This document shows positions 9,324 through 41,404 of a stretch of 44,886 nt of DNA, piece after piece. The notes under the pieces were generated by a model. It did not search any database and was not told where the DNA came from. It worked only from the letters and a program-made list of their open reading frames with translations. This DNA is from a virus, in IMG/VR virus record IMGVR_UViG_3300050821_003011, positions 1-44,886 of that record; one strand, written 5' to 3'. How positions within the stretch are numbered: the first letter of the stretch is position 1; each line of letters starts with the position of its first letter. The position numbers and the translations under genes were made by a program.

Positions 9324-12152
9324 ATGATTCTGAAGCCGCGATTTCCGGGGCGAACACCGCGGCCGGGCCACGCGGTCAGTAGCGCGTTTTCTCAGGGCCT
9401 TGTACTTCTACAACCGTTCGGTGAGGGCGGTGGTTCGCGAATTCTCGATCCGCACAGCCACAACGTCGGGACCTACCACGGCACAACGTTATCTTGGCAG
9501 TCCAGTCCCATCGGTCCAGCAGTCACGCTTGACGGAGCAACGAACTGGGTAGAAGTTCCAGCCGATTCGAGTTACCTGGTGAATGCGGCGAATGGCTCTC
9601 CGTTTTCCGTTGCGGCATGGGTCAACTGGGTTGCTGATGGGACGGACGCCTACGGGCTGATTTACGGCGAGGAAGACGGCGCAAGCTTCAATCTCACGTT
9701 TCTGATCAAGAGCACAGGCGGAATTGCGCTGTACCCGGCTGGTGGATCAATCGATCCAGTAACCGGAGTCACCCTGACCTCGGGGCTCTGGTATCACCTG
9801 GTGTGGACCTTTGGGCTGAAGTACGGCCAAGCTCTCTACGTCAATGGAATTCAGAAATTCGAGGATGGAAACTTCGGTGGTCCGACTGTTGGCGCTAACC
9901 TTTTCCGCGGGCGTATCGGCGGGAACTCCGTCTTCGGTTCAGGGCGCTTCATTCAAGGCGCCGTCGCTGGTGTAGCGAAGTGGGTCCGGGAACTGAATCC
10001 CAATGAAGTTTCGCGGCTCTACGTTGAGCCGATGTCTCTGTACGTCCCTTACCGGCAGATATGGGGATTCACACCTGGCATTGGAACAATCGACGGCGCT
10101 GGGCATGGACGCCCATCGAGCCGAGCTTTCGGGGCGGGAACGATTGGGCATCCCGGAGACCTGTTTATCGTTGGCGCCGGTCATAGTCGCGTGTCCAGCA
10201 GGAAATTCGGCACTGGAGCACTGGCGGGCGGGAACAAGATCATTGGCAGTGTTGGACGTCCATCGAGCCGTAAGTTTGGCCATGGGCTGATAGCGAGTGC
10301 GAATCTCATCCAGGGCAGCTATGGCCGGAAGTCGAGTCGAGCTTTCGGCGTTGGGGCACTGACCACCAAAGAATTCACGCTCTTTATCTCAGGCGTTGAT
10401 GTCACCAAGCACATGCGGATCAACTCGCTGAACATCACCAATTCGATCAGCCAGACCTCAACCGCAAGTTTTGATTACGGCGGACAGGATCTCACCGGGG
10501 CATTACTGATTTTGCAAGTCGGGCAACCGGTGATCTTCTATCACGGCAACACGCGAATCTTTGGCGGAACGATCGACCAGGCGCTGAATTCGTTTTACGG
10601 CCGTAGCAGCACCGAAGGACCGAACTACATCCAAGTCACCTGTTCGGATTTTTCGCAAATCCTCGACAGACGATACGTCGCGGCGAACTACAACCAATCC
10701 GGATCAGTGTTCGACATGATCAGCATCGTGATTGATCTTGTTGCAACGTACCTATCGAACGACAACATCAAGTACAATTTCGCGAACGGTCAGAACGAAA
10801 GCATCGTGAATCCCGGTGCGATCACGTTCGACTGGATCACGGCTCGGCAAGCTTTTACTCAGCTCGCGAACTTGGTGCAGTGGGATTTCAACGTCGATTA
10901 CTACGGGGTTTTGCAGTTTTGGCCGAACACGCAAGGTTCGGGACCGGCGCCGTTCGATATCCACGACAATGACGGAAACTGGCTCTCTGAACCTCCGATG
11001 ACGGTGCAGGAGTTTCGGACTAGCTATCGGAACCGGCAAGGGGTTAGAAGCGCTTCGCAGTCTTCGGCGTTGTGGACGGATACGTTTTCTACGGCTGATC
11101 CAGGACCGTTTCCCGTCGAGCCACAGCCACCTGATGGGATCCGGCGCGCGTTCATTACCAAATTCGGCATCCCGACAACGCCCTACGTGTTTGTGAATGG
11201 CTCAGCTCAGCGGGTGGTGTCCCTACTCGATATCGGGGCGGCTGGACCTGGCGGATACGACTGGTATTGGATTCCCCCCCAGGGCTTCGCACCTGCTAGC
11301 GGTGTCTTTCAGAACCAGGCTAACCCAGTGCTCACGTCGAGTGACGTTCTGACGGTGCAGTATCAGAGCCCAGTTTCGCCGATCATCTTTGTCGAGTGTG
11401 CTGACCAAATCGCCATTCGCGCGGCCATCGAAGGGAATTCGGGTATCTATGAGGACGTGCAAAACGTTCAGAACATCACGGACCCAGGAGCGTTGACGGC
11501 CTACGCCCAAGGCTTGTTGAATCGATACGGCTGTCTGTACGGGATGCCCAAGCAGGTGATCTACACGACGGACAAGGCGGGACTGTTCGCCGGCATGTTG
11601 CAGACGATCCAGACTACCAATCCGTTCAATCAGGGCTCAGCTCCCTACATGCTTTCGCAAGTGCAGATCCGGGACAAAGATGGAAAGTTCCTCCGTTATA
11701 CGGTCACGGCGGATTCTGGGCTATACCAGCTTTCATCGGCTCAATACCTCGGGCAACTTGTGAATCAAGGGCAATTGGCTCAGCCGTCGAATCGGAACAC
11801 ATACGTTTGGCAGTTAGCTCCGAGCTATCCAGGGATCACCAATCCAGGGCTTTCAAGCGGTCAACTCGCGCAGATTCAGGCGACTCTTGCGACCTCGGAA
11901 GTGCCGTTGTACATGACGATCATCTATCAGACCGCACCAAGCACGCTGGGGCCGAACGTCGAGATAGAAATCAACGGTGCAGGTTTTGGGCAGCAGCTCA
12001 CTTTGCCCTTGACGCCAAACCGGACGTACACGGTTTACTTTCCTACGCAGGCCTTTCCTCAGGGATCGAGCTTGGTCCCGTTATTCCAAGGGGGGAACTC
12101 TGGGATCAAAGACGGGGTGCTTACCTTGGTAACGAGCGTCATCCGAAACTGA
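9324..12152 (+). CDS. Large tail protein with LamG domain and GRxSSRxFG repeats
   Basis: 942 residues. Residues about 25-235 look like a concanavalin A-like LamG fold (AWVNWV, LWYHLVWTF, LYVNGIQ, and a GRIGG segment), typical for glycan binding. Residues about 255-345 carry four short repeats with the core GRPSSRAFG or a variant, spaced by about 25-30 residues. From residue about 350 begins a baseplate or hub-like part (TLFISGVDVT, TRIFGGTIDQ, YIQVTCSDF, ITARQAFTQLANLV) resembling phage tail proteins that bind the tail tip. Probably a host-recognition tail-tip protein. A run of eight C (about 11274-11281) is a possible slippage spot but the frame stays open. Confidence 0.75.
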   Translation: MILKPRFPGRTPRPGHAVSSAFSQGLVLLQPFGEGGGSRILDPHSHNVGTYHGTTLSWQSSPIGPAVTLDGATNWVEVPADSSYLVNAANGSPFSVAAWVNWVADGTDAYGLIYGEEDGASFNLTFLIKSTGGIALYPAGGSIDPVTGVTLTSGLWYHLVWTFGLKYGQALYVNGIQKFEDGNFGGPTVGANLFRGRIGGNSVFGSGRFIQGAVAGVAKWVRELNPNEVSRLYVEPMSLYVPYRQIWGFTPGIGTIDGAGHGRPSSRAFGAGTIGHPGDLFIVGAGHSRVSSRKFGTGALAGGNKIIGSVGRPSSRKFGHGLIASANLIQGSYGRKSSRAFGVGALTTKEFTLFISGVDVTKHMRINSLNITNSISQTSTASFDYGGQDLTGALLILQVGQPVIFYHGNTRIFGGTIDQALNSFYGRSSTEGPNYIQVTCSDFSQILDRRYVAANYNQSGSVFDMISIVIDLVATYLSNDNIKYNFANGQNESIVNPGAITFDWITARQAFTQLANLVQWDFNVDYYGVLQFWPNTQGSGPAPFDIHDNDGNWLSEPPMTVQEFRTSYRNRQGVRSASQSSALWTDTFSTADPGPFPVEPQPPDGIRRAFITKFGIPTTPYVFVNGSAQRVVSLLDIGAAGPGGYDWYWIPPQGFAPASGVFQNQANPVLTSSDVLTVQYQSPVSPIIFVECADQIAIRAAIEGNSGIYEDVQNVQNITDPGALTAYAQGLLNRYGCLYGMPKQVIYTTDKAGLFAGMLQTIQTTNPFNQGSAPYMLSQVQIRDKDGKFLRYTVTADSGLYQLSSAQYLGQLVNQGQLAQPSNRNTYVWQLAPSYPGITNPGLSSGQLAQIQATLATSEVPLYMTIIYQTAPSTLGPNVEIEINGAGFGQQLTLPLTPNRTYTVYFPTQAFPQGSSLVPLFQGGNSGIKDGVLTLVTSVIRN

Positions 12153-14334: not shown

Positions 14335-14395
14335 TACCTTCGATCCATTGCCGTAAGCACGTTCCCAGTTCAGAATCGAAAGCATGGAGGCTCCT

Positions 14396-15538
14396 ATGGG
14401 TTCCACTGAATTAGTCGTTTCCCCGCGCGGTGGCCAGATTGTTTCCGCGTCCGACTTCATGCCGCTGATGAGCGTAGAAGAGGCAATCCAGCGCAAGAAG
14501 CAAATGAACGCTTTCATCCAGGGCGTGATGACGGAAGGCGAAGACTATGGCCCGATGCCTGGTGACAACAAGAAGGAAAAGAAGAAAGTTCTACTCAAAC
14601 CAGGCGCTGAAAAATTGACCAGCATTTTCGGACTGGCACCGCGTTACCTCGATGAGTGCATTATCGAAGACTGGACCGGGCGCGAGCACGCCGGCGAACC
14701 GCTTTTCTACTACCGCTACAAGTGCCAGCTCTACCGTGGCGATCGGTTCATGGGTGAAGCGGTGGGCAGCTCGAACTCTTGGGAAGCGAAGCACCGATAT
14801 CGCTGGGTGTCCAAGGATCAGATTCCCACCGGCCTGGATATCGAGAAGCTCCAGAGCCGTGGGAGCGTGCGCTCGCTATTCGAGTTCATGTTTGCGTTCG
14901 ACAAGCGCGAGACGACGGGGCAATACGGCAAGCCCGAGGAACACTGGGCGATGTTCGAGAAGGCTTTGCAGGATGGGACGGCGCGAAACGCAAAGAAAAC
15001 GACCAAGAAGGGCGAGCAGCCGGGATACGAGATCGACGTTGATACTACGCTCTACCGCATTCCCAACGAAGGCGCGGCGGATGTAGTCAACACCTGCCAG
15101 AAGATTGCACAGAAGCGCGCGCTAGTGGCAGCAGTGCTGATCGTAACGAATTGCTCGGACGCATTCACCCAGGACCTCGAAGACTCCGAGCCTCCGATTG
15201 ACACCGGGGGACATCCGACCGGCACGCAAGCGGCCGCGGACCACGTAGCGCAGACCAAAATAAACGGTGGCAAGATTGACCCGGCGCTGGCTTCGGCGCT
15301 CTCGGCAATCGATAAGAATATCGGAGCGTTTCCAACGGCGTGCGAGTCCCTGTACAAGCTCTTGGCAGAGAAGCACGGCGGCGCCGGGGCGAAAGCCTAC
15401 GATGACATCTGCATGAAGTTCAGCGAGAAATTCCCGAAGGGCTGCAAAGACAAGCAGGCGATGAAGGACTGCATCAAGGATCTGTGGATGGAGTACGAAA
15501 AGCCCGTCGCACAGCCGGTACAAGAGGTACTTTCGTAA
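14396..15538 (+). CDS. Putative single-strand annealing/recombination protein
   Basis: 380 residues from ATG 14396, which has GGAGG 5 nt upstream; ATG 14384, in the same frame, is preceded by TTGCCG, 17 bp and CAGAAT and would be a leaderless start. The N-terminal part has VMTEGEDYGPMPGDNKK and PGAEKLTSIFGLAPRY, and the middle has KIAQKRALVAAVLIVTNCSD then AFTQDLED. This is a well-known conserved phage pattern (in other phages often placed beside exonucleases and called a Rad52-like or recombination protein). It would bind or anneal ssDNA during replication and packaging. The Gp157 family gene and nucleases downstream support this. Confidence 0.55.
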   Translation: MGSTELVVSPRGGQIVSASDFMPLMSVEEAIQRKKQMNAFIQGVMTEGEDYGPMPGDNKKEKKKVLLKPGAEKLTSIFGLAPRYLDECIIEDWTGREHAGEPLFYYRYKCQLYRGDRFMGEAVGSSNSWEAKHRYRWVSKDQIPTGLDIEKLQSRGSVRSLFEFMFAFDKRETTGQYGKPEEHWAMFEKALQDGTARNAKKTTKKGEQPGYEIDVDTTLYRIPNEGAADVVNTCQKIAQKRALVAAVLIVTNCSDAFTQDLEDSEPPIDTGGHPTGTQAAADHVAQTKINGGKIDPALASALSAIDKNIGAFPTACESLYKLLAEKHGGAGAKAYDDICMKFSEKFPKGCKDKQAMKDCIKDLWMEYEKPVAQPVQEVLS

Positions 15539-15761: not shown

Positions 15762-16415
15762 ATGAGCACCCAAAACCTCACACTCTACAACCTGGAAGCC
15801 ACGCTCATGCGGCTGATGTTCGAACGCGAAGAACTTGCGGGCGAAGCTGCTGTGCCTGGTGAGGAAGCACTGCAACGGCAGGCGTTGGCCCAGAAGGATA
15901 TCGAGATCCGCGAATACATCGGGCGCGAGGTAAAGAAGGTCGATGGAATCGCGCATTACCTCCACGAATTTGAAATGCGCGCGACCGTGGCGAAAGAAGA
16001 GGCGAAACGCCTGAAGGCTCGGGCGGACTCCTGGGAAGCTCGCCACGAACGGCTAGAGACGCTGGTGAAAAGCGTGATGCTGATGAGCGGCAAGTCACGG
16101 CTGGACGGCGATTCGAATACGTTAAAGTTGGTGAAGTGCCCGCCTAGCGTTGAGATCACACAGCCGTCGCAACTAACCGATGAGTACCAGCGGATCACAG
16201 TGACAATGCCTATGACGCTGTGGCAGCGGCTTCTAGAGGCAACGTGGAATCAACCTCGGTACGCCGATATAAACTTGCAACTGCGATCGAGCGGCGATGT
16301 GAAGCGCAGCGAACCTGAAGCCGTGAAATCCAAGATAGCCGAAGCGCTGAAACGCGGCGACGGCGTACCTGGATGCTCTTTGGTGACCGATAAGCTGAGC
16401 CTGAGGGTGGAATGA
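15762..16415 (+). CDS. Siphovirus Gp157 family protein
   Basis: 217 residues. The N-terminal 100 residues are a long coiled coil (LYNLEATLMRL, then Glu/Ala/Lys heptads up to KRLKARADSWEARHERLETL) and the next part has the GKSRLDGDSNTLKLVKCPPS segment typical for Gp157, followed by a C-terminal VKSKIAEALKRGDGVPG segment. The family is linked to ssDNA binding and phage resistance in Streptococcus phages, and it often accompanies annealing proteins, as here. 2 nt after the upstream stop; its end overlaps the next start. Confidence 0.78.
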   Translation: MSTQNLTLYNLEATLMRLMFEREELAGEAAVPGEEALQRQALAQKDIEIREYIGREVKKVDGIAHYLHEFEMRATVAKEEAKRLKARADSWEARHERLETLVKSVMLMSGKSRLDGDSNTLKLVKCPPSVEITQPSQLTDEYQRITVTMPMTLWQRLLEATWNQPRYADINLQLRSSGDVKRSEPEAVKSKIAEALKRGDGVPGCSLVTDKLSLRVE

Positions 16416-16745: not shown

Positions 16746-17261
16746 ATGAGTGATTCAATCCGTTTTACCGGCGTTGTCCTGAAATCCTTCACGCGCAAGC
16801 CCGCGAGCGGCGGCACTGCTGCGTTTCGATCCAACTATCCCACTGAGGCCACTTGTAGATCAATGGGCTGGGGAGGCATGGCTAACGGGCAAACGTCCGC
16901 GAATCTCGAAGGGCGGTTATCTGCTACGCACGCTCACCTACAGCCCAAGGATGGAGAGCTGGGGAAATGGCAGATTGAATTCGACGCTACGGCCGTAGAC
17001 GGATTTGAGGGCGTGCGCTTCGAGGTCGAGGGCAAGCGCGGCAAAGGTCACAGGTTGGAGTTGAACTTCAAAGTTCACTTCGCGGATAAGACCGCGTGCG
17101 CAGCGCTCGAAGCCTACATGACCACGATGGGCGAAGGCAAAGGCGTGTTGACCGTGAGCTACGTCGAGCAGCCCAAGCAGGGTGAATTGTCGATGGAAGA
17201 CGGGAAACAGGAACGGCTGATCAGCGAATCACAAGCCAAGGACACAGCCGGCGATGACTAG
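16746..17261 (+). CDS. Acidic-tailed protein, possibly ssDNA-binding
   Basis: 171 residues, leaderless. Beta-rich N-terminal and central parts (IRFTGVVLKSFTRKPASGGT, RFEVEGKRGKGHRLELNFKV) and a C-terminal hydrophilic part ending in Asp-Thr-Ala-Gly-Asp-Asp. Size, a beta core and an acidic end resemble SSB-type proteins, and the gene lies inside a recombination block, but no OB-fold motif is clear. Its stop overlaps the start of a 29-residue membrane peptide. Confidence 0.5.
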   Translation: MSDSIRFTGVVLKSFTRKPASGGTAAFRSNYPTEATCRSMGWGGMANGQTSANLEGRLSATHAHLQPKDGELGKWQIEFDATAVDGFEGVRFEVEGKRGKGHRLELNFKVHFADKTACAALEAYMTTMGEGKGVLTVSYVEQPKQGELSMEDGKQERLISESQAKDTAGDD

Positions 17262-17383: not shown

Positions 17384-17902
17384 ATGCCTGAAAGCAATTT
17401 TACTGAAAGGCCAGCAGCCCCCGAAGCGATTGGTGTTTGGATTACTCTTACTAAGGGCTTTGTGGCACTGGTGGACCGCGAAGACGAACACCTAGCCGCG
17501 TTCAAGTGGACAGCCTGCGTCCGCCGAAGAAAGAATGGTGGCGTTCGCGTTTACGCAGTGCGGGAGTGGGTTGAGGACGGCAAGCCAATCCGGCAACTTT
17601 TGCACCATGCGGTTCGTCCCCGTTCCGATGTGGACACGGATCACCATGATGGCGATACACTAAACAATCGGCGCTCCAACCTCAGGGATGCGACCCGCAC
17701 GCAAAACAACGCTAATGCCGTAAAGCGCGGTGGCATCTATGGTTCCAGATTCAAAGGCGTCTATCGCTGCGGAAAACGCTGGACAGCGCAGGTACGCAAT
17801 AAGCATATCGGTTGCTTTCGTTCCGAAGTGAATGCGGCCACGGCCTACAACTTTGCAGCGTACGAACTATTCGGCGAATTCTCGCGCGGCAACCTCCCAT
17901 GA
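17384..17902 (+). CDS. HNH endonuclease with AP2 domain
   Basis: 172 residues. N-terminal strands (WITLTKGFVALVD), then LHH (73-75) and the HNH core DHHDGDTLNNRRSNL (86-100) with ATRTQN behind it, then a C-terminal AP2-like DNA-binding domain (SRFKGVYRCGKRWTAQV, IGCFRSEVNAATAYN, ELFGEFSRGNLP, residues 120-172). This is the usual build of free-standing phage homing endonucleases (HNH-AP2). The gene sits between the putative ssDNA-binding gene and VRR-NUC gene and probably is a mobile genetic parasite; it could also nick DNA near the origin. Confidence 0.85.
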   Translation: MPESNFTERPAAPEAIGVWITLTKGFVALVDREDEHLAAFKWTACVRRRKNGGVRVYAVREWVEDGKPIRQLLHHAVRPRSDVDTDHHDGDTLNNRRSNLRDATRTQNNANAVKRGGIYGSRFKGVYRCGKRWTAQVRNKHIGCFRSEVNAATAYNFAAYELFGEFSRGNLP

Positions 17903-18264
17903 AGGTTTTGGAGGCGCACATCGAGCTTGCCGGTACCCAGATCATGGAGTGGGACGGTTGGCGCTCATTCAAGATGGAGCAAAACTTCAGCGAGAAAAAA
18001 CAAAAGAGCGTCGGGGAACCGGGAATGCCAGACCGGTTGTATCTTCGCTACGACTCCGGTGACATCGCTTGGATAGAATGGAAACGCATCAAGGGTAAGT
18101 TGGCAACCAAAGCGCTTCAACACCAGAAAACCTGGCACGCAAGGGAGCGCGCGCGCGGCGGCAAGACCTATATCGCCGGCGAAGACTTTCCGGCCACAAT
18201 CGAGGGATTCAGGAATTGGTATTGCCGTTCTGGGTTGATGCGTAACCAGATACTTAGCCTCTGA
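17899..18264 (+). CDS. VRR-NUC nuclease
   Basis: 121 residues from ATG 17899, which overlaps the stop of the HNH gene; the longer upstream frame is a shadow. It has the VRR-NUC (PD-(D/E)XK) pattern: an acidic N-terminal helix, GMPDRLYL (42-49) with the catalytic Asp, IEWKR (59-63) with Glu-x-Lys, and Q75 in the QHQKTWH helix. Such nucleases cleave flap or branched DNA and work in recombination or resolution. It is the last gene before the presumed origin. Confidence 0.8.
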   Translation: MKVLEAHIELAGTQIMEWDGWRSFKMEQNFSEKKQKSVGEPGMPDRLYLRYDSGDIAWIEWKRIKGKLATKALQHQKTWHARERARGGKTYIAGEDFPATIEGFRNWYCRSGLMRNQILSL

Positions 18265-18450
18265 AAATGCTGTGGAAAACCACGCTTGAATCACAGGAAA
18301 ATTCTGTGGAAAACCTGTGCACGGTTGTGGATAAAAGCGGTTTTCCACAGACCCTCAATGTTTTGCACAGCGTTTTCCTCAAAACTTTCCACAGGGCAAA
18401 TCGATCAGGACACGGACTGAAACCGAGTTTTCCTCGATTTCCACAGCACC
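18265..18450. other. Putative replication origin with DnaA-box cluster
   Basis: A gene-free region rich in DnaA boxes. Matches to TTWTNCACA on either strand: 18271-18279, 18305-18313, 18326-18334 (TGTGGATAA, the perfect R1-type box), 18341-18349 and 18361-18369. Single-mismatch boxes are 18385-18393 and 18437-18445. Five full matches and two near matches within 175 bp cannot be chance. Boxes lie on both strands with the perfect box central. AT-rich bases 18451-18480 follow. Host DnaA is the most likely reader because no phage initiator is seen. Confidence 0.78.
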
Positions 18451-18471
18451 TACTAATTCTGTTAGTATTCT
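18451..18471 (+). promoter_or_regulatory. Inverted repeat with -10-like sequence
   Basis: TACTAA, TTCTG, TTAGTA (18451-18467) is a 6-bp inverted repeat with a 5-bp loop and overlaps TATTCT (18466-18471), a -10-like hexamer. No good -35 is visible. It lies beside the DnaA boxes and may be an operator of the following zinc-finger gene or part of the origin. Confidence 0.4.
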
Positions 18472-18504
18472 GTATCTCTTGAGGCTGGAGAATAAAAGCA
18501 GCAG

Positions 18505-18717
18505 ATGAGGCTTCGAATGTGCGCCTGTGGGCGCTGGATGGGCACCAGGGCGTTGACGACTCATCGGCAGAGCTGCGAGGTTTACCGCAACATCCGAACG
18601 CTGGTGACTGGACGCCGGCCGCACAAGCCCCACGAGATGGCGGGCCGGAAGGGAACGAGGCGCGCGGAATACCTTCGCGAGACGGGACGTGATACGCTTG
18701 AGCGCAGGGAGGCTTGA
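18505..18717 (+). CDS. Small zinc-finger-like protein
   Basis: 70 residues, starting MRLRMCACGRWMGTRALTTH and continuing with RQSC: a C-x-C ... H-x3-C metal site near the N-terminus followed by a strongly basic C-terminal half (about 20 Arg/Lys). It could bind nucleic acid. It is the first gene after the presumed origin. Function unknown. Confidence 0.55.
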   Translation: MRLRMCACGRWMGTRALTTHRQSCEVYRNIRTLVTGRRPHKPHEMAGRKGTRRAEYLRETGRDTLERREA

Positions 18718-24390: not shown

Positions 24391-24625
24391 GGTATACGCG
24401 CGGGCGCTTCGCGACGTCGGCCACGAACTAGATGGAGCGTTGCGAAAATTCAAACGCTTCAACTCTGCGCATGAAGGCTACGCAGTGATCTTGGAAGAAG
24501 TCCGGGAATTGGAACGTGAGATTTTCAAGCGGCAGAAAAAGCGCAAGCCCGCGAAGATGCGGGCGGAAGCGGTGCAGGTCGCGGCAATGGCGGTGAGGTT
24601 CATCCTTGATGTCTCCGACAAATAA
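24383..24625 (+). CDS. MazG-like or small conserved phage protein
   Basis: 80 residues, helical: NSAHEGYAVILEEVRELERE, then a basic loop and AEAVQVAAMAVRFILD. The pattern 'HEGYAVIlEEvxELexEi' with 'EAxQvAaMAvRf' is well known in many phages and looks like a MazG-type NTP pyrophosphohydrolase helix pair, though the full set of acidic residues is not complete. Would remove odd nucleotides. The end overlaps the glycosyltransferase start. Confidence 0.55.
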   Translation: MAKVYARALRDVGHELDGALRKFKRFNSAHEGYAVILEEVRELEREIFKRQKKRKPAKMRAEAVQVAAMAVRFILDVSDK

Positions 24626-25355
24626 CCCCCAAGTGTGTGCGATTTGTCTCACAGCAGATCGGCAGGCTCTCACTGATCGTGCGGTGCGCTGCTTTCTCGC
24701 GCAAACCTACCGGCCATCAGTCTTGCTGATTTACGATACCGGCAAAAAGAAATACCAGACGCAAGGGCTAGCGACTTCGCGAATCGTGCATGTGTACGAC
24801 GGACCCGAGATGTCTGGGCCAATCGGCAAACTGCGCAACACGGCCAACAGTCTCACGATTCCGACAACAGAAGTGCTGATCCACTGGGATAGCGATGACC
24901 TAAGCGGGCCGTATCGCATCCAGGATCAGGTAGCGAGCTTGCAGGAATCGGGGCGTGATTGCGTCGGGTATAATAACGTGCTGTTCTGGCGACGGATCAT
25001 TGGGCAGAATGACGAATCGCACGAAGCTTGGGTCTACAATCGCATCAACCCACCAAAACCTATCGGAGGATCACTCTGCTACTGGAGACGTGTCTGGGAG
25101 CGCGTCAAGTTCCGTGACGACTATCCTAGACCAGGTGGGGGAATGGGCGAAGACACGGCATGGCTGCAATTCGTGGACTCGAAAGCGTACTCTACACTTC
25201 CAGAGCGCGATACGTCAAATCTTCCACTGGTGTGCGAGATTCACGGCGGCAACACAACGTCGTACGACATCGAAGCTCAGAAGGAACGCGGCGATACGTG
25301 GTGGACAAGAGTACCCGACTGGGACGCGCGGCTTCAAAGTCTGATGGCTTTATGA
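24609..25355 (+). CDS. Glycosyltransferase family 2-like
   Basis: 248 residues, GT-A fold: N-terminal VCAICLTADRQALTDRAV segment, FLAQTYRPSVLLI, and the nucleotide-sugar/metal-binding DSDD at residues 94-97. Downstream GGSLCYWRRVWERVKF is the acceptor-side part. ATG 24609 overlaps the end of the upstream gene. First of several transferases in this operon; it would add a sugar to an unknown acceptor (host glycan, virion protein or DNA). Confidence 0.8.
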   Translation: MSPTNNPQVCAICLTADRQALTDRAVRCFLAQTYRPSVLLIYDTGKKKYQTQGLATSRIVHVYDGPEMSGPIGKLRNTANSLTIPTTEVLIHWDSDDLSGPYRIQDQVASLQESGRDCVGYNNVLFWRRIIGQNDESHEAWVYNRINPPKPIGGSLCYWRRVWERVKFRDDYPRPGGGMGEDTAWLQFVDSKAYSTLPERDTSNLPLVCEIHGGNTTSYDIEAQKERGDTWWTRVPDWDARLQSLMAL

Positions 25356-25687
25356 TTCGGCGCACAGCAGTAAAGAAGCGACGGACGAAGCCGCGGCGCG
25401 GGCGTGTGATCGATAAGCCGTTCCTGGCGTGGATGCACGCTCAGCCGTGCGCAGTGCGGACGATGGCGTGGCTGTGTAGCGGAGAGATCGAGTTCCATCA
25501 CGTCAGGGATTTTGGTTCACCGAAGAATGACCGGCGCGGATTGCCGCTTTGCACTGGCCACCATACTGCAGGCGAGACGGCAATTCACAAACTTGGGAAA
25601 CGTACATTTCAAGAGGTTCACGGCATTGACATCGAAGGAATGATCGCAACGTACAACAGAGATTACGAAAGCGAGCGTGCGGCGTGA
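25352..25687 (+). CDS. HNH-type / DUF968-like nuclease
   Basis: 111 residues from ATG 25352, overlapping the GT gene. Strongly basic N-terminus (RRTAVKKRRTKPRRGR), then FHHVRDFGSPKNDRRGLPLC, TGHHTAGETAIH and FQEVHG: an HNH-like metal site (HH...N/D...CxxHH) typical of DUF968/NinG-type phage nucleases that act on recombination intermediates. Lies alone among sugar enzymes; ends overlapping the next GTG. The longer upstream frame is a shadow. Confidence 0.65.
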   Translation: MIRRTAVKKRRTKPRRGRVIDKPFLAWMHAQPCAVRTMAWLCSGEIEFHHVRDFGSPKNDRRGLPLCTGHHTAGETAIHKLGKRTFQEVHGIDIEGMIATYNRDYESERAA

Positions 25688-26415
25688 GCGTTTTTTTAAC
25701 GATACCTTCGGCTCGACCTCCCGAAGAGGCGAAGCGAACTCTCCAACTATGGAGGGATGCCGGTTATAAAATCGCGCTCTGGCTCGACACCCCGGAGCTT
25801 GAGACCTTCGCAGACTACTCCATCACCTGTCAGACGTATCCTGGGTATTCATTAGCAGTGAACCAACTAATTGCGCAAGTGCGAGCCAACTACGAAGACG
25901 CCGAATGGTTCGTGATTGGTGGGGACGACGTGGAACCCGATCCGAACGACACGGCGGAAGAAATCGCGCGTCAATGTAGCAGTCACTTCGGTAGTGTGCA
26001 TGATACTCCGAACTACGAGTGTTCAACCTTCGGCGTCACGCAGCCGACCGGGGATAGGGCATTCGAGGGCTCCATCGATAAAATCTGCGGTTCAGCTTGG
26101 ATCGGCCGAGAATTCGCGCGACGGATGTACCAGGGCAAAGGTCCACTCTGGCCGGAGTACACGCGCTTTTTCATGGATCAAGAGCTACAGGAAGTCGCGA
26201 TTCAGTACGGCGTCTTTCAGCAGAGGCGTGACCTGATTCATCTGCATCGCTGGTACGGACGTGCGAATGACGCGATTGATTCTGGGACTGTGACAACAGA
26301 ACTGCCAGCACACCTAGCGCATCAAGAGAAGCTGTTTCAGCCAGAGCGGGATATTTTCAATCGACGGAAACACGCGAGGCCTACGCCGTTTCCTGGATCG
26401 GAGCCGATAGCGTGA
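25684..26415 (+). CDS. Glycosyltransferase-like protein
   Basis: 243 residues from GTG 25684. GT-A-type features: a conserved start (FLTIPSARPPEEAKRTLQ), a metal-binding GGDD (79-82) followed by VEPDP, then IDKICGSAWIGREFA and FFMDQELQEVA, with the DQE triplet in the position of a catalytic base. Similar proteins are seen in phages beside FkbM/TylF methyltransferases. The acceptor is unknown. Coupled both upstream and downstream by stop/start overlaps. Confidence 0.65.
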   Translation: MSVFLTIPSARPPEEAKRTLQLWRDAGYKIALWLDTPELETFADYSITCQTYPGYSLAVNQLIAQVRANYEDAEWFVIGGDDVEPDPNDTAEEIARQCSSHFGSVHDTPNYECSTFGVTQPTGDRAFEGSIDKICGSAWIGREFARRMYQGKGPLWPEYTRFFMDQELQEVAIQYGVFQQRRDLIHLHRWYGRANDAIDSGTVTTELPAHLAHQEKLFQPERDIFNRRKHARPTPFPGSEPIA

Positions 26416-26642
26416 CGCTCAGTGAACTGAAGCCACGCGGCTACCATCTATCGGACGTCGAGCCAGACTTTCGCGGAATGCCAAGGTTTGAATGGTGGCA
26501 CAAGATGATCACGAGCCAGTGTGATGCGTTTCTCGAAAGCCCGAAGGCAAAACACTGGGGCGACGGGCCAGGCAAGAAATGGCGAGAGCGAGCGGTTGTA
26601 ACGCCGACCTCGCGAGATAAGTACGGAATAAGGAGCATGTGA
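26412..26642 (+). CDS. Unknown protein
   Basis: 76 residues from GTG 26412, overlapping the preceding gene. Rich in Trp, Lys and Arg; no signal or membrane part. Contains PRFEWWHKMITSQCDAFLES. GGAG near its end forms the ribosome site of the next gene. No family recognised. Confidence 0.5.
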   Translation: MTLSELKPRGYHLSDVEPDFRGMPRFEWWHKMITSQCDAFLESPKAKHWGDGPGKKWRERAVVTPTSRDKYGIRSM

Positions 26643-27274
26643 TCCAGACCATTGAGAACATCGCCGAAGCCGCGCTGTCCAGTTTGGAAACGTGCCGCTC
26701 AACGTATGCGATCGCGCGGCAAGCTCTGGAGGAAGGCGTATCCGGAGACTTCGTAGAGTGTGGGGTTTACGCCGGCGCCCAAGCGGCAATCATGGCAAAG
26801 GCAATCTGCTGTGTCGCTGAGCGGCCATGGGAGCCACGGCGGCGCGTTCACCTGTTCGATAGCTTCGAAGGCTGTCCATTTCCAGGGCCGAAGGACAAAG
26901 AATTTCTCGACGCGGGGCACAAAAACGGGCAAGCGAGCTGCACGCTGGAGGGTGTAAAAGCGAACATGGCTCAGTGGGGGATACCGGACGAACTGCTGAT
27001 TTACCACCGAGGATGGTTCAAGGATACTGTTCCGCCGTTTCACGGAATGCCGATGGTTGGCTCGGCACCGGCTCACAACAATATCGCGGTGCTAAGGCTG
27101 GACGCGGACCTGTACGAATCAACGATGACTTGCTTGGAGCACCTTTACCCGCTGCTCTCACCTGGTGGTTTTCTGATAGTGGACGATTACGCGCTCTCAG
27201 GAGCAAGGCAAGCGGTGGAGGATTACTTCGATGAGCACGGCGGGCGTGGACCCATGTACATGAGAAAATCATGA
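26639..27274 (+). CDS. TylF/MycF-type O-methyltransferase
   Basis: 211 residues from GTG 26639 with AGGAG just upstream. Family marks: GDFVECGVYAGAQA (36-49) as the SAM-binding region, HLFDSFEG (71-78), IAVLRLDADLYEST (149-162) with the metal-binding Asp residues and IVDDY (180-184). TylF-type enzymes O-methylate sugars of natural products or surface glycans with SAM and a metal. It stands between glycosyltransferases, so a sugar is the likely acceptor. Confidence 0.85.
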   Translation: MIQTIENIAEAALSSLETCRSTYAIARQALEEGVSGDFVECGVYAGAQAAIMAKAICCVAERPWEPRRRVHLFDSFEGCPFPGPKDKEFLDAGHKNGQASCTLEGVKANMAQWGIPDELLIYHRGWFKDTVPPFHGMPMVGSAPAHNNIAVLRLDADLYESTMTCLEHLYPLLSPGGFLIVDDYALSGARQAVEDYFDEHGGRGPMYMRKS

Positions 27275-27975
27275 AGCGATACTCGCAATTCTCGGAGCAG
27301 GATTACATCCTGCAAGCGTTTCCTGATCCAAACGAACTGAATTCGTTTCTCAAGACGGGGCGCTTTTTGGACATAGGCTCTTGGGACACGGTTACTTTCT
27401 CGAACACGCGCGCGCTTTATGAGTTGGGCTGGGCTGGTGTGATGATCGAGCCTTCACCAGGGCCGCTTGTTGAAATGCTACGTTGCTGCACGAAGTGTGC
27501 GACTCCGATTGACGACCGCGAGCATGAGCCTTGGGGAAAGCGAAAGCAACCCGAGTGCCGGGTGTGCGGAGGGACGCGCTACGGCTTTGAGAAGCGCATC
27601 ACGTTCGTAGCGGCGGCGGTGGGGCTGGAGCCTGGCTTCGTATCGATTGACGTGACAGACGACGCGCTCTCGACCTCGGACGTTGGCTCGCGCGAGAAGT
27701 GGGACGCACTCGGGGGATTTTACGGAACGCTGATGGTTCCAGTAATCACGCTTGAAGACATCGGCAACCGGTTTGGAGGTTTCGATTTTATCAATATCGA
27801 TGTGGAGGGACACTCAACCGACTTACTTCTGAAGATGCTGGAACTGGACTGGCAACCGTCCTGCATCGTGGTTGAGACGGACGGCCGGGATGCGGCGATA
27901 CTGGCGGCGGCAACTCCAAAGCACTACTCATGCGTGTACGGTAACGGGCAGAACATTGTTCTGGTGCGCAAATGA
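27271..27975 (+). CDS. FkbM-type methyltransferase with inserted zinc ribbon
   Basis: 234 residues. FkbM family marks: SQFSEQDYIL at the start, FLDIGSWDTVTFSNTRALYE (32-51), ELGWAGVMIEPSP, SIDVTDDALSTSDVG and FDFINIDVEG (171-180). Between the SAM-binding strand and the next beta strand is an unusual segment at residues 72-100 with two Cys pairs (CCTKC and CRVCGG), a zinc-ribbon insertion that is not part of usual FkbM enzymes. Stop-start overlaps bind it to its neighbours. It probably methylates a sugar hydroxyl together with the TylF-type enzyme. Confidence 0.82.
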   Translation: MKRYSQFSEQDYILQAFPDPNELNSFLKTGRFLDIGSWDTVTFSNTRALYELGWAGVMIEPSPGPLVEMLRCCTKCATPIDDREHEPWGKRKQPECRVCGGTRYGFEKRITFVAAAVGLEPGFVSIDVTDDALSTSDVGSREKWDALGGFYGTLMVPVITLEDIGNRFGGFDFINIDVEGHSTDLLLKMLELDWQPSCIVVETDGRDAAILAAATPKHYSCVYGNGQNIVLVRK

Positions 27976-28199
27976 CCGTGGTCCACATTGCGGCTCCCCC
28001 AGAAGCACAGATCCAGCGTTGTTCGCGGTGCCAAGAGATTCTTATTGACGTGCGAAACGCGATGGTCCCCATCGGTTCCCCTGGACCTGGTTGCTGGGGT
28101 GTTGGCTGCTACGTCGGTGTAGAAGGGAATCGCTCTTACGTGAGAGACTATGACGCCAATGGACCGGACGAAATGCCGTGCAATAGGAGAATTCAATGA
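27972..28199 (+). CDS. Cys-rich small protein
   Basis: 75 residues; starts in the overlap with the FkbM gene. RCSRC near residue 17, then CWGVGC and MPCNR at the end: five or more Cys, so a zinc site is plausible. Placed next to the FkbM gene that itself has a zinc ribbon; it may be a partner protein. Function unknown. Confidence 0.5.
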   Translation: MTVVHIAAPPEAQIQRCSRCQEILIDVRNAMVPIGSPGPGCWGVGCYVGVEGNRSYVRDYDANGPDEMPCNRRIQ

Positions 28200-28831
28200 A
28201 GCGCGTCGTGGTGAACGTCTCGACCGGGCGGTACGTGGCGGGGCAGGCTCGCTTAACAGAAGCCCTCGCACTTCTGGGCGAAGATTACATGCTCTGGCGT
28301 GACGAACTCCCACCAGGGAGCCCGAGCCATCAGGAGACGCCCTACGCGTTCAAGAGTTGGGCGCTTGAAGCGGCGCGGCAATCGGGCCACACGTTACTGC
28401 TTTGGGCGGATGCGAGCATTATCCCGATAGCGAGCTTGGAGCTGATCTGGGCTTACGCAGAAGCGCATGGGGTGTGGTTGTCGGATAACGGCTACCGTAA
28501 CGATGAATGGACATGCGAAGCGGCTTACCCACTGCTCGGCGTCACGAAAGAAGAAAACCACAACATCAAGCATGTGGTAGCAACGGCGTTCGCGGTCGAT
28601 CTCTTGCACCCGGTTGGGGCGCAATTCTTTGTTGAGTACTTCAGGCTGGCAAAGAACGGAGCTTTCAAGGGACCGTGGAAAGGTGGCGTCGGAGTTCAGC
28701 ATCGCCACGATCAGACCTGTGCATCGGTGATAGCCCACCGGCTGCGCATCCCGTTGACGAATCCACCTAGGTTTTTCGCGTACGATGGCGGGCAGACTGA
28801 AGAGACAATCCTGATTGCGAAGGGCGTATGA
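28196..28831 (+). CDS. GT-A-fold transferase-like protein
   Basis: 211 residues. KRVVVNVSTGRYVAGQARL at the N-terminus, LLLWADASIIPIASLE (67-82) with a D-x-D-like pair and a C-terminal HRHDQTCASVIAHRL (169-183), the 'HxxDQ' signature of some GT-A sugar transferases. The acceptor is unknown. Overlaps neighbours at both ends. Confidence 0.6.
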   Translation: MKRVVVNVSTGRYVAGQARLTEALALLGEDYMLWRDELPPGSPSHQETPYAFKSWALEAARQSGHTLLLWADASIIPIASLELIWAYAEAHGVWLSDNGYRNDEWTCEAAYPLLGVTKEENHNIKHVVATAFAVDLLHPVGAQFFVEYFRLAKNGAFKGPWKGGVGVQHRHDQTCASVIAHRLRIPLTNPPRFFAYDGGQTEETILIAKGV

Positions 28832-29082
28832 TAACACTGGTTATCGCGTTTCTGCTGGCGCACGATCCGTGCCACTACATCATCCAGGGCGCACGCGTCG
28901 AGCAACTTCGAAGCCTGAACCAGCAAGGGCGCTGTATCTCCTGGGAGGCGTACGCGAAGTATCCGGATCACCTGAAGGCGCTTCGAACGTACCGGGCGGA
29001 AGTGGAAAAAGCTTGGCCTGGGAATATGAAGCGCTGGGACCTGAAACGCGATTTGGCAATCATCGACAGCGAGGGCAAATGA
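28828..29082 (+). CDS. Small protein with N-terminal hydrophobic segment
   Basis: 84 residues, ATG 28828. Starts MITLVIAFLLAHDP, a short hydrophobic stretch, then CHYIIQGARVEQLRSLNQ and a charged helix. Could be a small membrane-linked subunit of the glycosylation set. No family recognised. Confidence 0.5.
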   Translation: MITLVIAFLLAHDPCHYIIQGARVEQLRSLNQQGRCISWEAYAKYPDHLKALRTYRAEVEKAWPGNMKRWDLKRDLAIIDSEGK

Positions 29083-29981
29083 AACTGATTGGCTGCATGG
29101 CTGTGCGAAACGAAGCCTGGTGTCTCGGGTTGACGTTGCGGGCCGCGCTTCAGTGGTGCGATGAAATGGTGGTGCGAATTCACGGCTCGACGGACCAAAC
29201 CGAAGACATCGTGTATCAGATCACGCGGGAATACTCAGGAAGAGTGGGTGTCTATGTTAGCGACAATCCAGAATGGGCAGAGATGCAGCACAGGCAGCAG
29301 ATGTTAGATGAAGCGCGACGAAAGGGCGCAACCCACATAGCCATAGTAGACGCAGATGAGCTTGCGACCGGTAATATTATTACAGAACTTCGCCCAGGCA
29401 TCCTGAACAACTTGCCGAAAGGTCATTGCCTACAACTCCCGATGTACCAGCTTCGCGGCTCACTCGACCGATACCACTCAAACGGCATTTGGGGAAACCG
29501 CTGGCTCTCAGTAGCGTTTGCGGACGATCCGCGGCTCTCGTGGAGCGGCGACAAGTTCCACAGCCGCGAACCGGGCGGGATGACACTGAAACCGTATCGA
29601 CCGATTGCGCACGGACAAGGGGGAAGCTTTCACCTGTGGGGGCTTAGCGCGCGAAGACTGCGGGCGCGTCATGCGATGTACAAGGTCACGGAGCGGCTAC
29701 GATGGCCGGATCGCGCGGTGCGGGAGATCGAATTGATGTATAACGATTGGCGCTCACCAGCGGATAACGCCGCACACTATCCCGAGATAAAGCGCTATCA
29801 CGAACCATGGACCTTTGCTCCGATTCCGCGCGAATGGTGGACACCGTACCAGCATCTGCTAACGGCTCACTTGGACCCGGTAGACTTCAGCGAACCATGG
29901 CAAGAGCGGGCGGTACGGGAGTTACTTCAGGTCCATGGACATGAACACTTCAAGGGGTTAGATCTGTTCGGGGTTGCATGA
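29079..29981 (+). CDS. Glycosyltransferase family 2
   Basis: 300 residues from ATG 29079; the longer upstream frame is a shadow. GT2 marks: KLIGCMAVRNEAWCLGLTLR (a classic start of these enzymes), HGSTDQTEDIV (35-45), and the nucleotide-binding DADE (91-94). Conserved W residues in the C-terminal region (HLWGLSARRLRARHAMYK). ATG overlaps the upstream stop. It transfers a sugar from a nucleotide donor to an unknown acceptor. Confidence 0.82.
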   Translation: MKLIGCMAVRNEAWCLGLTLRAALQWCDEMVVRIHGSTDQTEDIVYQITREYSGRVGVYVSDNPEWAEMQHRQQMLDEARRKGATHIAIVDADELATGNIITELRPGILNNLPKGHCLQLPMYQLRGSLDRYHSNGIWGNRWLSVAFADDPRLSWSGDKFHSREPGGMTLKPYRPIAHGQGGSFHLWGLSARRLRARHAMYKVTERLRWPDRAVREIELMYNDWRSPADNAAHYPEIKRYHEPWTFAPIPREWWTPYQHLLTAHLDPVDFSEPWQERAVRELLQVHGHEHFKGLDLFGVA

Positions 29982-40440: not shown

Positions 40441-40799
40441 TGCTCTCGCTTTCGATGATCCAGAACAAGACCGGCATTTTCTTTCTCAGCGTCTACCAGT
40501 TTGACGGTGTGACGCCTCAATCGCTTGTCGGGTCAACGCTCTGGTTTCATGCAGCCTATACGCCGGCTGGATTTGTGGTCAACAAAAACTCGTCGGGTTC
40601 AGGGATCACGATTCAGAACATTGCGGGCGGTCTGAATTGCGCAACTCTCCAGATCGAACCTGGCGACACTACGTCTCTTGCGCTTGGCGCGGAGGCCGTA
40701 GCTGCGATGGATTGTGAGCTAGTCCTCCAAAACGGTGTGGAGAGCTACGAGTTAGACAAGGGGACGCTCACGGTAACCGGCAACGTGGGAACGCCGTGA
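40440..40799 (+). CDS. Beta-rich virion protein, unknown
   Basis: 119 residues from ATG 40440 (an upstream TTG at 40437 is an alternative). Contains IQNKTGIFFLSVYQFDG, GSTLWFHAAYTPAGF and a C-terminal Thr/Val-rich strand. No Cys cluster. Probably a small fibre or accessory protein. Overlaps the phosphatase GTG. Confidence 0.5.
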   Translation: MLSLSMIQNKTGIFFLSVYQFDGVTPQSLVGSTLWFHAAYTPAGFVVNKNSSGSGITIQNIAGGLNCATLQIEPGDTTSLALGAEAVAAMDCELVLQNGVESYELDKGTLTVTGNVGTP

Positions 40800-41404
40800 A
40801 TTTGTTTTTGATGCGCCATGCAGAAGCGGAATCTGGTGCCCAGATGGACCCGACGCGCAGCTTGACTCCCACCGGCAAAGACCAAGCCAAGATGATGGGG
40901 AAATGGCTCAAGCGGCAAGATCCGAGCCCGAGCCTGCTACTCCAGTCCAATTTCAAACGCTCGCAATCGACGGCGAAACGGGTAGGTAAAAAGCTTGGCC
41001 TTGAACCGGTGACCTGTGGCGCACTGGACCCTGAGGGAACGCCAGAGAACGCCTGGGACACGATCAAGAAGCTTGCGGTGGAAGCTGGGGAGCAAGACGT
41101 GATTGCGATCAGCCACGGGCCGCTAGTCGAGAATCTGCTGGCCTATCTGACGGGATCGGATTTACCCCAGCAATTTCACTTCGCTCATGCGGCCGTAGCG
41201 CATTTTGAGACGACAACCGGGAAGCGTGGAATCATGCACTGGTTGGTAACGCCAAACGTGGTAGCGCGGGATCAGGACGAAATGGATTTAGTTAGGAGCG
41301 ATGCGCAGAAAGCGGTGGAAGCGGCGCTGAAGTATGCGGAAGCCTGCATGTCAGCGGGTGAGGCTCAATCGGCGGTCGAGACCACGAGTGCGCTAGGGCT
41401 CTGA
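40796..41404 (+). CDS. Histidine phosphatase (SixA-like)
   Basis: 202 residues from GTG 40796, overlapping the upstream stop. FLMRHAEAE (4-12) gives the RHG-type motif with H8; SLTPTGKDQAKMMGKWL follows; the second catalytic His is H107 in AISHGPLVENLL. This is the two-His arrangement of SixA-type phosphohistidine phosphatases, which remove phosphate from His-containing phosphotransfer proteins. C-terminal 60 residues are helical and extra. Such an enzyme is rare in a virion block; it might control a host signalling or PTS protein. Confidence 0.8.
   Translation: MNLFLMRHAEAESGAQMDPTRSLTPTGKDQAKMMGKWLKRQDPSPSLLLQSNFKRSQSTAKRVGKKLGLEPVTCGALDPEGTPENAWDTIKKLAVEAGEQDVIAISHGPLVENLLAYLTGSDLPQQFHFAHAAVAHFETTTGKRGIMHWLVTPNVVARDQDEMDLVRSDAQKAVEAALKYAEACMSAGEAQSAVETTSALGL

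Follow-up and report, generated by a model that had tools for sequence, protein, structure and literature searches.

A predicted host-DnaA-driven replication origin resembling acidobacterial oriC in a tailed phage genome

Region 18271-18470 of the phage genome analysed here is probably a replication origin driven by the DnaA protein of the host and built as a compact imitation of an acidobacterial oriC. The initial annotation of the window, i.e. the whole stretch of DNA that was analysed (44,886 bases), had read a cluster of DnaA boxes as a host-driven origin. This reading is supported by a basal unwinding system (BUS) located behind the boxes, by conservation of the site in related phages and by its identity to acidobacterial oriC. 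We infer that the site would be the only origin of the phage and that the host would be an acidobacterium.

The phage genome and its early genes

Since the two ends of the contig have 97 bp in common, the contig represents a whole phage genome, assembled as a circle of 44,789 bp. It encodes terminase, portal, maturation protease, capsid, tape measure and endolysin, and nearly all genes of the window lie on one strand. The site is preceded by a set of early genes:

14384..15538, plus strand: probable single-strand annealing protein of the early module (phrog_10048; RecT/Rad52/ERF-like fold)
15762..16415, plus strand: early-module Sipho_Gp157 / Gam-like protein
16746..17261, plus strand: conserved early-module protein kept in relatives, function unassigned
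17899..18264, plus strand: nuclease/resolvase-like gene directly ahead of the origin (weak matches to phrog_93 and phrog_5702)

These genes constitute a recombination module rather than an initiation module. The product of the gene at 14384 is probably a single-strand annealing protein, since its alignment-based model (mean pLDDT 74.5) has RecT/Rad52/ERF-like structural neighbours, with weak TM scores; the fold predicted from the single sequence was uninformative. The RecT/Rad52/ERF-like fold of the alignment-based model ruled this protein out as an initiator candidate.

The early genes also include an HNH endonuclease gene next to the origin (17384-17902), possibly a homing endonuclease. Other genes were recorded along the genome. 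Glycosyltransferase-like and methyltransferase-like genes are located between the early and late genes (24606-29981), in an order kept in relatives, and 40796-41404 is a phage gene similar to the phosphohistidine phosphatase SixA (NCBIfam TIGR00249, above the cut-off).

The DnaA-box array and the basal unwinding system

The array consists of the following boxes, the leftmost three pointing leftward and the remainder rightward:

18271..18279, minus strand: DnaA box TTTTCCACA, exact
18305..18313, minus strand: DnaA box TTTTCCACA, exact
18326..18334, minus strand: DnaA box TTATCCACA, perfect
18341..18349, plus strand: DnaA box TTTTCCACA, exact
18361..18369, plus strand: DnaA box TTTTGCACA, exact to TTWTNCACA
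18373..18381, plus strand: weak box TTTTCCTCA, 1 mismatch
18385..18393, plus strand: weak box CTTTCCACA, 1 mismatch

The five exact matches to TTWTNCACA reported initially, one of them perfect, were all recovered (18271, 18305, 18326, 18341 and 18361). They are the only ones of the entire window and all fall within 18271-18369, where about 2.0 would be expected in 44.9 kb. In 300 Markov-simulated genomes, a maximum of 2 exact boxes was reached in any 200-bp stretch, and a Poisson estimate puts five exact boxes in a stretch of this length at about 2e-8 per genome. The one-mismatch boxes reported alongside them also exist, although they number three (18373, 18385 and 18437) and not two. The region had further been called gene-free. 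This holds in substance, as the 71-residue open reading frame that mechanically spans the cluster (18267-18482) matched no family and the core of the site is read in another frame in a related phage; strictly, an open reading frame does overlap the cluster. Rfam gave no match, and nucleotide searches with the origin returned nothing from plasmids and chance-level matches only from phages.

The initial annotation missed a tandem box at 18428, a GCAC spacer and seven DnaA-trios (18450-18470) located behind the array:

18428..18436, plus strand: upstream tandem BUS box TTTTCCTCG, 2 mismatches, 13 bp from the trios
18437..18445, plus strand: BUS DnaA box ATTTCCACA, 1 mismatch
18446..18449, plus strand: BUS spacer GCAC, 4 bp, directly after the box at 18437
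18450..18470, plus strand: seven DnaA-trios CTA CTA ATT CTG TTA GTA TTC, predicted melting site

Many bacterial oriCs are opened by a BUS (PMC8287927). Its definition calls for a DnaA box and, no more than 16 bp away, three or more NAN trios read on the opposite strand, of which the first is ideally 3'-GAT-5' (Pelliciari et al., PMC8287927), and the commonest published spacing between the upstream tandem box and the trios is 13 bp (PMC8287927). In our test, boxes with at most 2 mismatches were accepted 0-16 bp ahead of the trios. The box ATTTCCACA at 18437 stands ahead of the trios with its 4-bp spacer. Where at least three consecutive trios beginning with CTA (3'-GAT-5') were sought, seven were found, the first two being CTA. 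The chance of meeting seven trios, the first two of them CTA, no more than 16 bp from a given point was estimated at about 5e-6 by simulation and at 2e-4 against the window's own background. The 18437 site is the top-scoring box-plus-trio site in the window, and AT content reaches 62% over 18440-18499. Judged by its sequence, 18428-18470 is a basal unwinding system.

This element resembles the BUS of Bacillus subtilis and other bacteria (PMC8287927) by its tandem boxes, short spacer, CTA-first trios, 13-bp spacing of the upstream box and neighbouring array. It differs from them in that it belongs to a tailed phage whose genome has no dnaA, and in that its trios are less regular than the chromosomal ones. 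In the window the downstream box of the tandem pair (18437) is better than the upstream one (18428, 2 mismatches), whereas the upstream box is usually the better; it is perfect in the related phage L307.

Conservation in related phages

Searches of IMG/VR with single proteins (nuclease, annealing protein, terminase) yielded no relatives. These were found through profile searches, the annealing-protein profile leading to 13 IMG/VR loci. The locus L307 belongs to a 45.9-kb contig (G097, IMGVR_UViG_3300044515_000006) that has 26 genes in common with the window, at 32-78% identity. Its intergenic region 10960-11169 contains six boxes; two of them are exact, and that contig has no other exact box. 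In the alignment of the cores, L307 reads TTTTCCACATTTCCACAGGACCTACTAATAC where the window reads TTTTCCTCGATTTCCACAGCACCTACTAATTC, and ATTTCCACAG-ACCTACTAAT is common to both despite the divergence of the proteins. The open reading frames overlapping the conserved core are read in different frames in the two phages, so it is the DNA that is conserved and not a protein. L307 has three trios in register only and a weaker box array than the window, and its origin is preceded by RusA and a methylase where the window has the nuclease gene.

The core pattern TTTCCACAGNNCCTACTA was found in 16 IMG/VR stretches, among them four contigs sharing genes with the window phage: those of L307, L376, L377 and L306 (G096). 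In L377, a nuclease homologue, boxes and BUS follow each other in the same order as in the window, with the nuclease gene directly ahead of the origin. In G096, a wHTH gene and a tandem-box BUS are no more than about 150 bp apart (contig positions 23603-23958, L384-L387); DnaA and a phage protein may act together in some relatives.

Other relatives have no BUS and carry replication genes at or near this place, a contrast that speaks for a DnaA-driven origin in the window. L309 encodes a DnaB helicase, L310 and L311 encode Phage_rep_org_N-like proteins scoring below the Pfam curated cut-off, and L312 and L313 have wHTH genes with a box pair in front, that of L313 matching HTH_36. In L333 (G101), a relative that has a Phage_rep_org_N-like protein, three TATCCACAG/TATGCACAG boxes stand in tandem at intervals of about 20 bp (901-950).

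The box pair was present in none of 47 records of terminase relatives, so the trait does not track the terminase. The second-best terminase relative (L219) bears a Chloroflexi label, which was set aside as host evidence because this relative is a 3.6-kb contig in a bin.

Match to acidobacterial chromosomal origins

In a broad sample of Acidobacteriota, TTTCCACAGNNCCTACTA occurred in 7 of 199 genomes against 8 genomes for the reversed control. Three of these matches lie immediately behind dnaA, at base 1584-1607 of the first contig; in this sample the signal comes from the location beside dnaA and not from the count. In the acidobacterial class to which one of these genomes belongs, the core occurs in 25 of 118 genomes and the reversed pattern in 3; the 25/118 is a descriptive figure since the class was picked after the first matches. 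None of 299 Pseudomonadota genomes matched.

In 15 of the 16 acidobacterial loci inspected, dnaA is located 242-505 bp upstream of the core on the same strand, and most dnaA-linked loci have box arrays and CTACTACTACTA trios. Except for two spacer bases, the aligned core is invariant between phages and chromosomes. The 9-mer ATTTCCACA is identical in the phages L307 and L377 and in most of the aligned acidobacterial oriCs. The exact 18-mer of the window, TTTCCACAGCACCTACTA, is found in the chromosome of G647, and the 18-mer of L307 in G658 and G663. In the acidobacterial class concerned, TTTCCACAGNNCCTACTA is the predicted BUS of the chromosome, next to dnaA.

The chromosomal origins located 3' of dnaA (L343-L349, L359, L361-L367) and the phage site share this core, an upstream two-way TTTTCCACAG array and a tandem box in front. 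They differ in that the chromosomes mostly have TTTTCCACATTTCCACAG and CTACTACTACTA whereas the window has TTTTCCTCGATTTCCACAG and mixed trios. As in a chromosomal oriC, the window combines a box array with an unwinding site; a chromosomal oriC also has dnaA adjacent on the chromosome, while here the record contains no DnaA and the contig is a phage. The site would work like an oriC but is not a chromosomal oriC.

Because the element is identical to oriC, DnaA binding, melting and helicase loading can be proposed by analogy. Host DnaA would bind the box array and extend from the tandem boxes 18428/18437 onto the adjacent trios 18450-18470, the duplex would melt at the trios, starting from 18450, and replication would pass to the helicase loader, DnaB and replisome of the host. 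The phage would supply recombination proteins (annealing protein, Gp157/Gam-like protein, nuclease) and, as far as seen, no initiator. On balance we favour the view that a group of tailed phages of Acidobacteriota without a phage initiator carries a faithful miniature of oriC, unwinding element included, fired by host DnaA alone, and that in relatives replisome-organiser-like, wHTH or DnaB genes have replaced this module at or close to the same position.

Replication genes, GC skew and origins of the P1/F type

The initial annotation had seen no phage initiator, helicase or polymerase, and none could be recognised here either: six-frame searches of the record with DnaA, DnaB_C and DNA_pol_A gave no match, and among the window proteins scanned no replication family or known phage initiator was identified. 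About half of the window proteins have no family, so that an unrecognised initiator could hide among them.

A GC-skew switch had been expected near 18.3 kb. The raw cumulative skew is uninformative: with almost all genes on the same strand, it just keeps rising. At synonymous sites, the minima fall near the expected place (18210 for third codon positions, 18546 for fourfold sites) but are not significant (permutation p 0.05-0.34). GC skew neither proves nor refutes the origin, the agreement in place being only suggestive.

The alternative that best withstands these data, although we consider it unlikely, is an origin of the P1/F style in which DnaA only helps the opening and initiation proper is the work of a phage protein that escaped recognition. 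The P1 (oriR) and F plasmids are mobile elements whose origins contain host DnaA boxes as the phage site does, together with a Rep protein (PMC4980987, PMC5043065); they encode this Rep initiator, whereas none was recognised in the phage, the comparison being drawn from reviews and not from sequences. Several small genes of the window without assignment, and the wHTH genes that adjoin boxes or BUS in G096, L312 and L313, would fit such an initiator. Against it, the wHTH, replisome-organiser-like and DnaB proteins of the relatives have no homologue in the window or in G097, the family scans point to no replication gene, and 18200-18600 contains no obvious iterons beyond the boxes.

DnaA boxes in other viral contigs

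DnaA-box clusters had been described as rare in phages. This was contradicted by IMG/VR, where two TTTTCCACAG boxes within 30 bp occur in at least 119 stretches and the reversed control pattern in 9. A DnaA gene was absent from all 50 box-cluster records tested. The presence of DnaB or Pol A showed no clear difference between contigs with and without box clusters, these contigs being fragments. Several unrelated viral groups have box arrays, some of them beside terminase genes, so the roles of such arrays may differ.

This diversity, and the fact that boxes alone suffice for a decoy, are what speaks for a datA-like array titrating DnaA against host initiation, or for a regulatory site that is not an origin. 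Such a role is improbable at 18271-18470: the parts that a decoy could do without, namely spacer and trios, are the best kept between phages and chromosomes, and the site showed no sigma-70-like promoter. A signal comparable to the injection stop of T5, which consists of repeats and palindromes and is reported to hold DnaA boxes (PMC13250531), is hardly credible given an end repeat of only 97 bp, a site in mid-genome and a BUS core matching chromosomal oriC; general PHROG scans of about 50 proteins named no A1/A2, the proteins that go with two-step DNA transfer in T5. A chance cluster without function, for which nothing was found to speak, is equally negligible in view of the box-cluster statistics, the conservation in related phages and the identity to oriC.

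That DnaA boxes occur in origins of mobile elements is already known. Among the papers searched that mention both DnaA-trios and phages, no phage origin with a complete host-matching box-spacer-trio element was found. With a complete oriC-type element and a link to a host group, the present findings exceed what the initial annotation had claimed. A phage origin driven by host DnaA would provide a natural and compact test of which oriC parts are enough for DnaA to open DNA, and raises the question of how such a phage escapes DnaA's once-per-cycle control. The BUS match points to a host group for phages without cultured relatives, and suggests that box-plus-trio scans could locate the origins and hosts of many uncultured phages.

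Two further kinds of array were observed among the viral contigs. In the GC-rich contigs L085 and L046, and probably L023 and L064, arrays of exact boxes lie just ahead of the terminase and portal genes. L046 has 7 exact boxes and L085 has 9, mostly of the TGTGGATAAC type, and a packaging site, an origin or a decoy are all possible. A box array with a common GTGATCTTGGCCCCC centre recurs in low-GC phages (L009, L045, L099, L036, L015, L024) and seems to form a second family of box-array origins, unrelated to the one described here.
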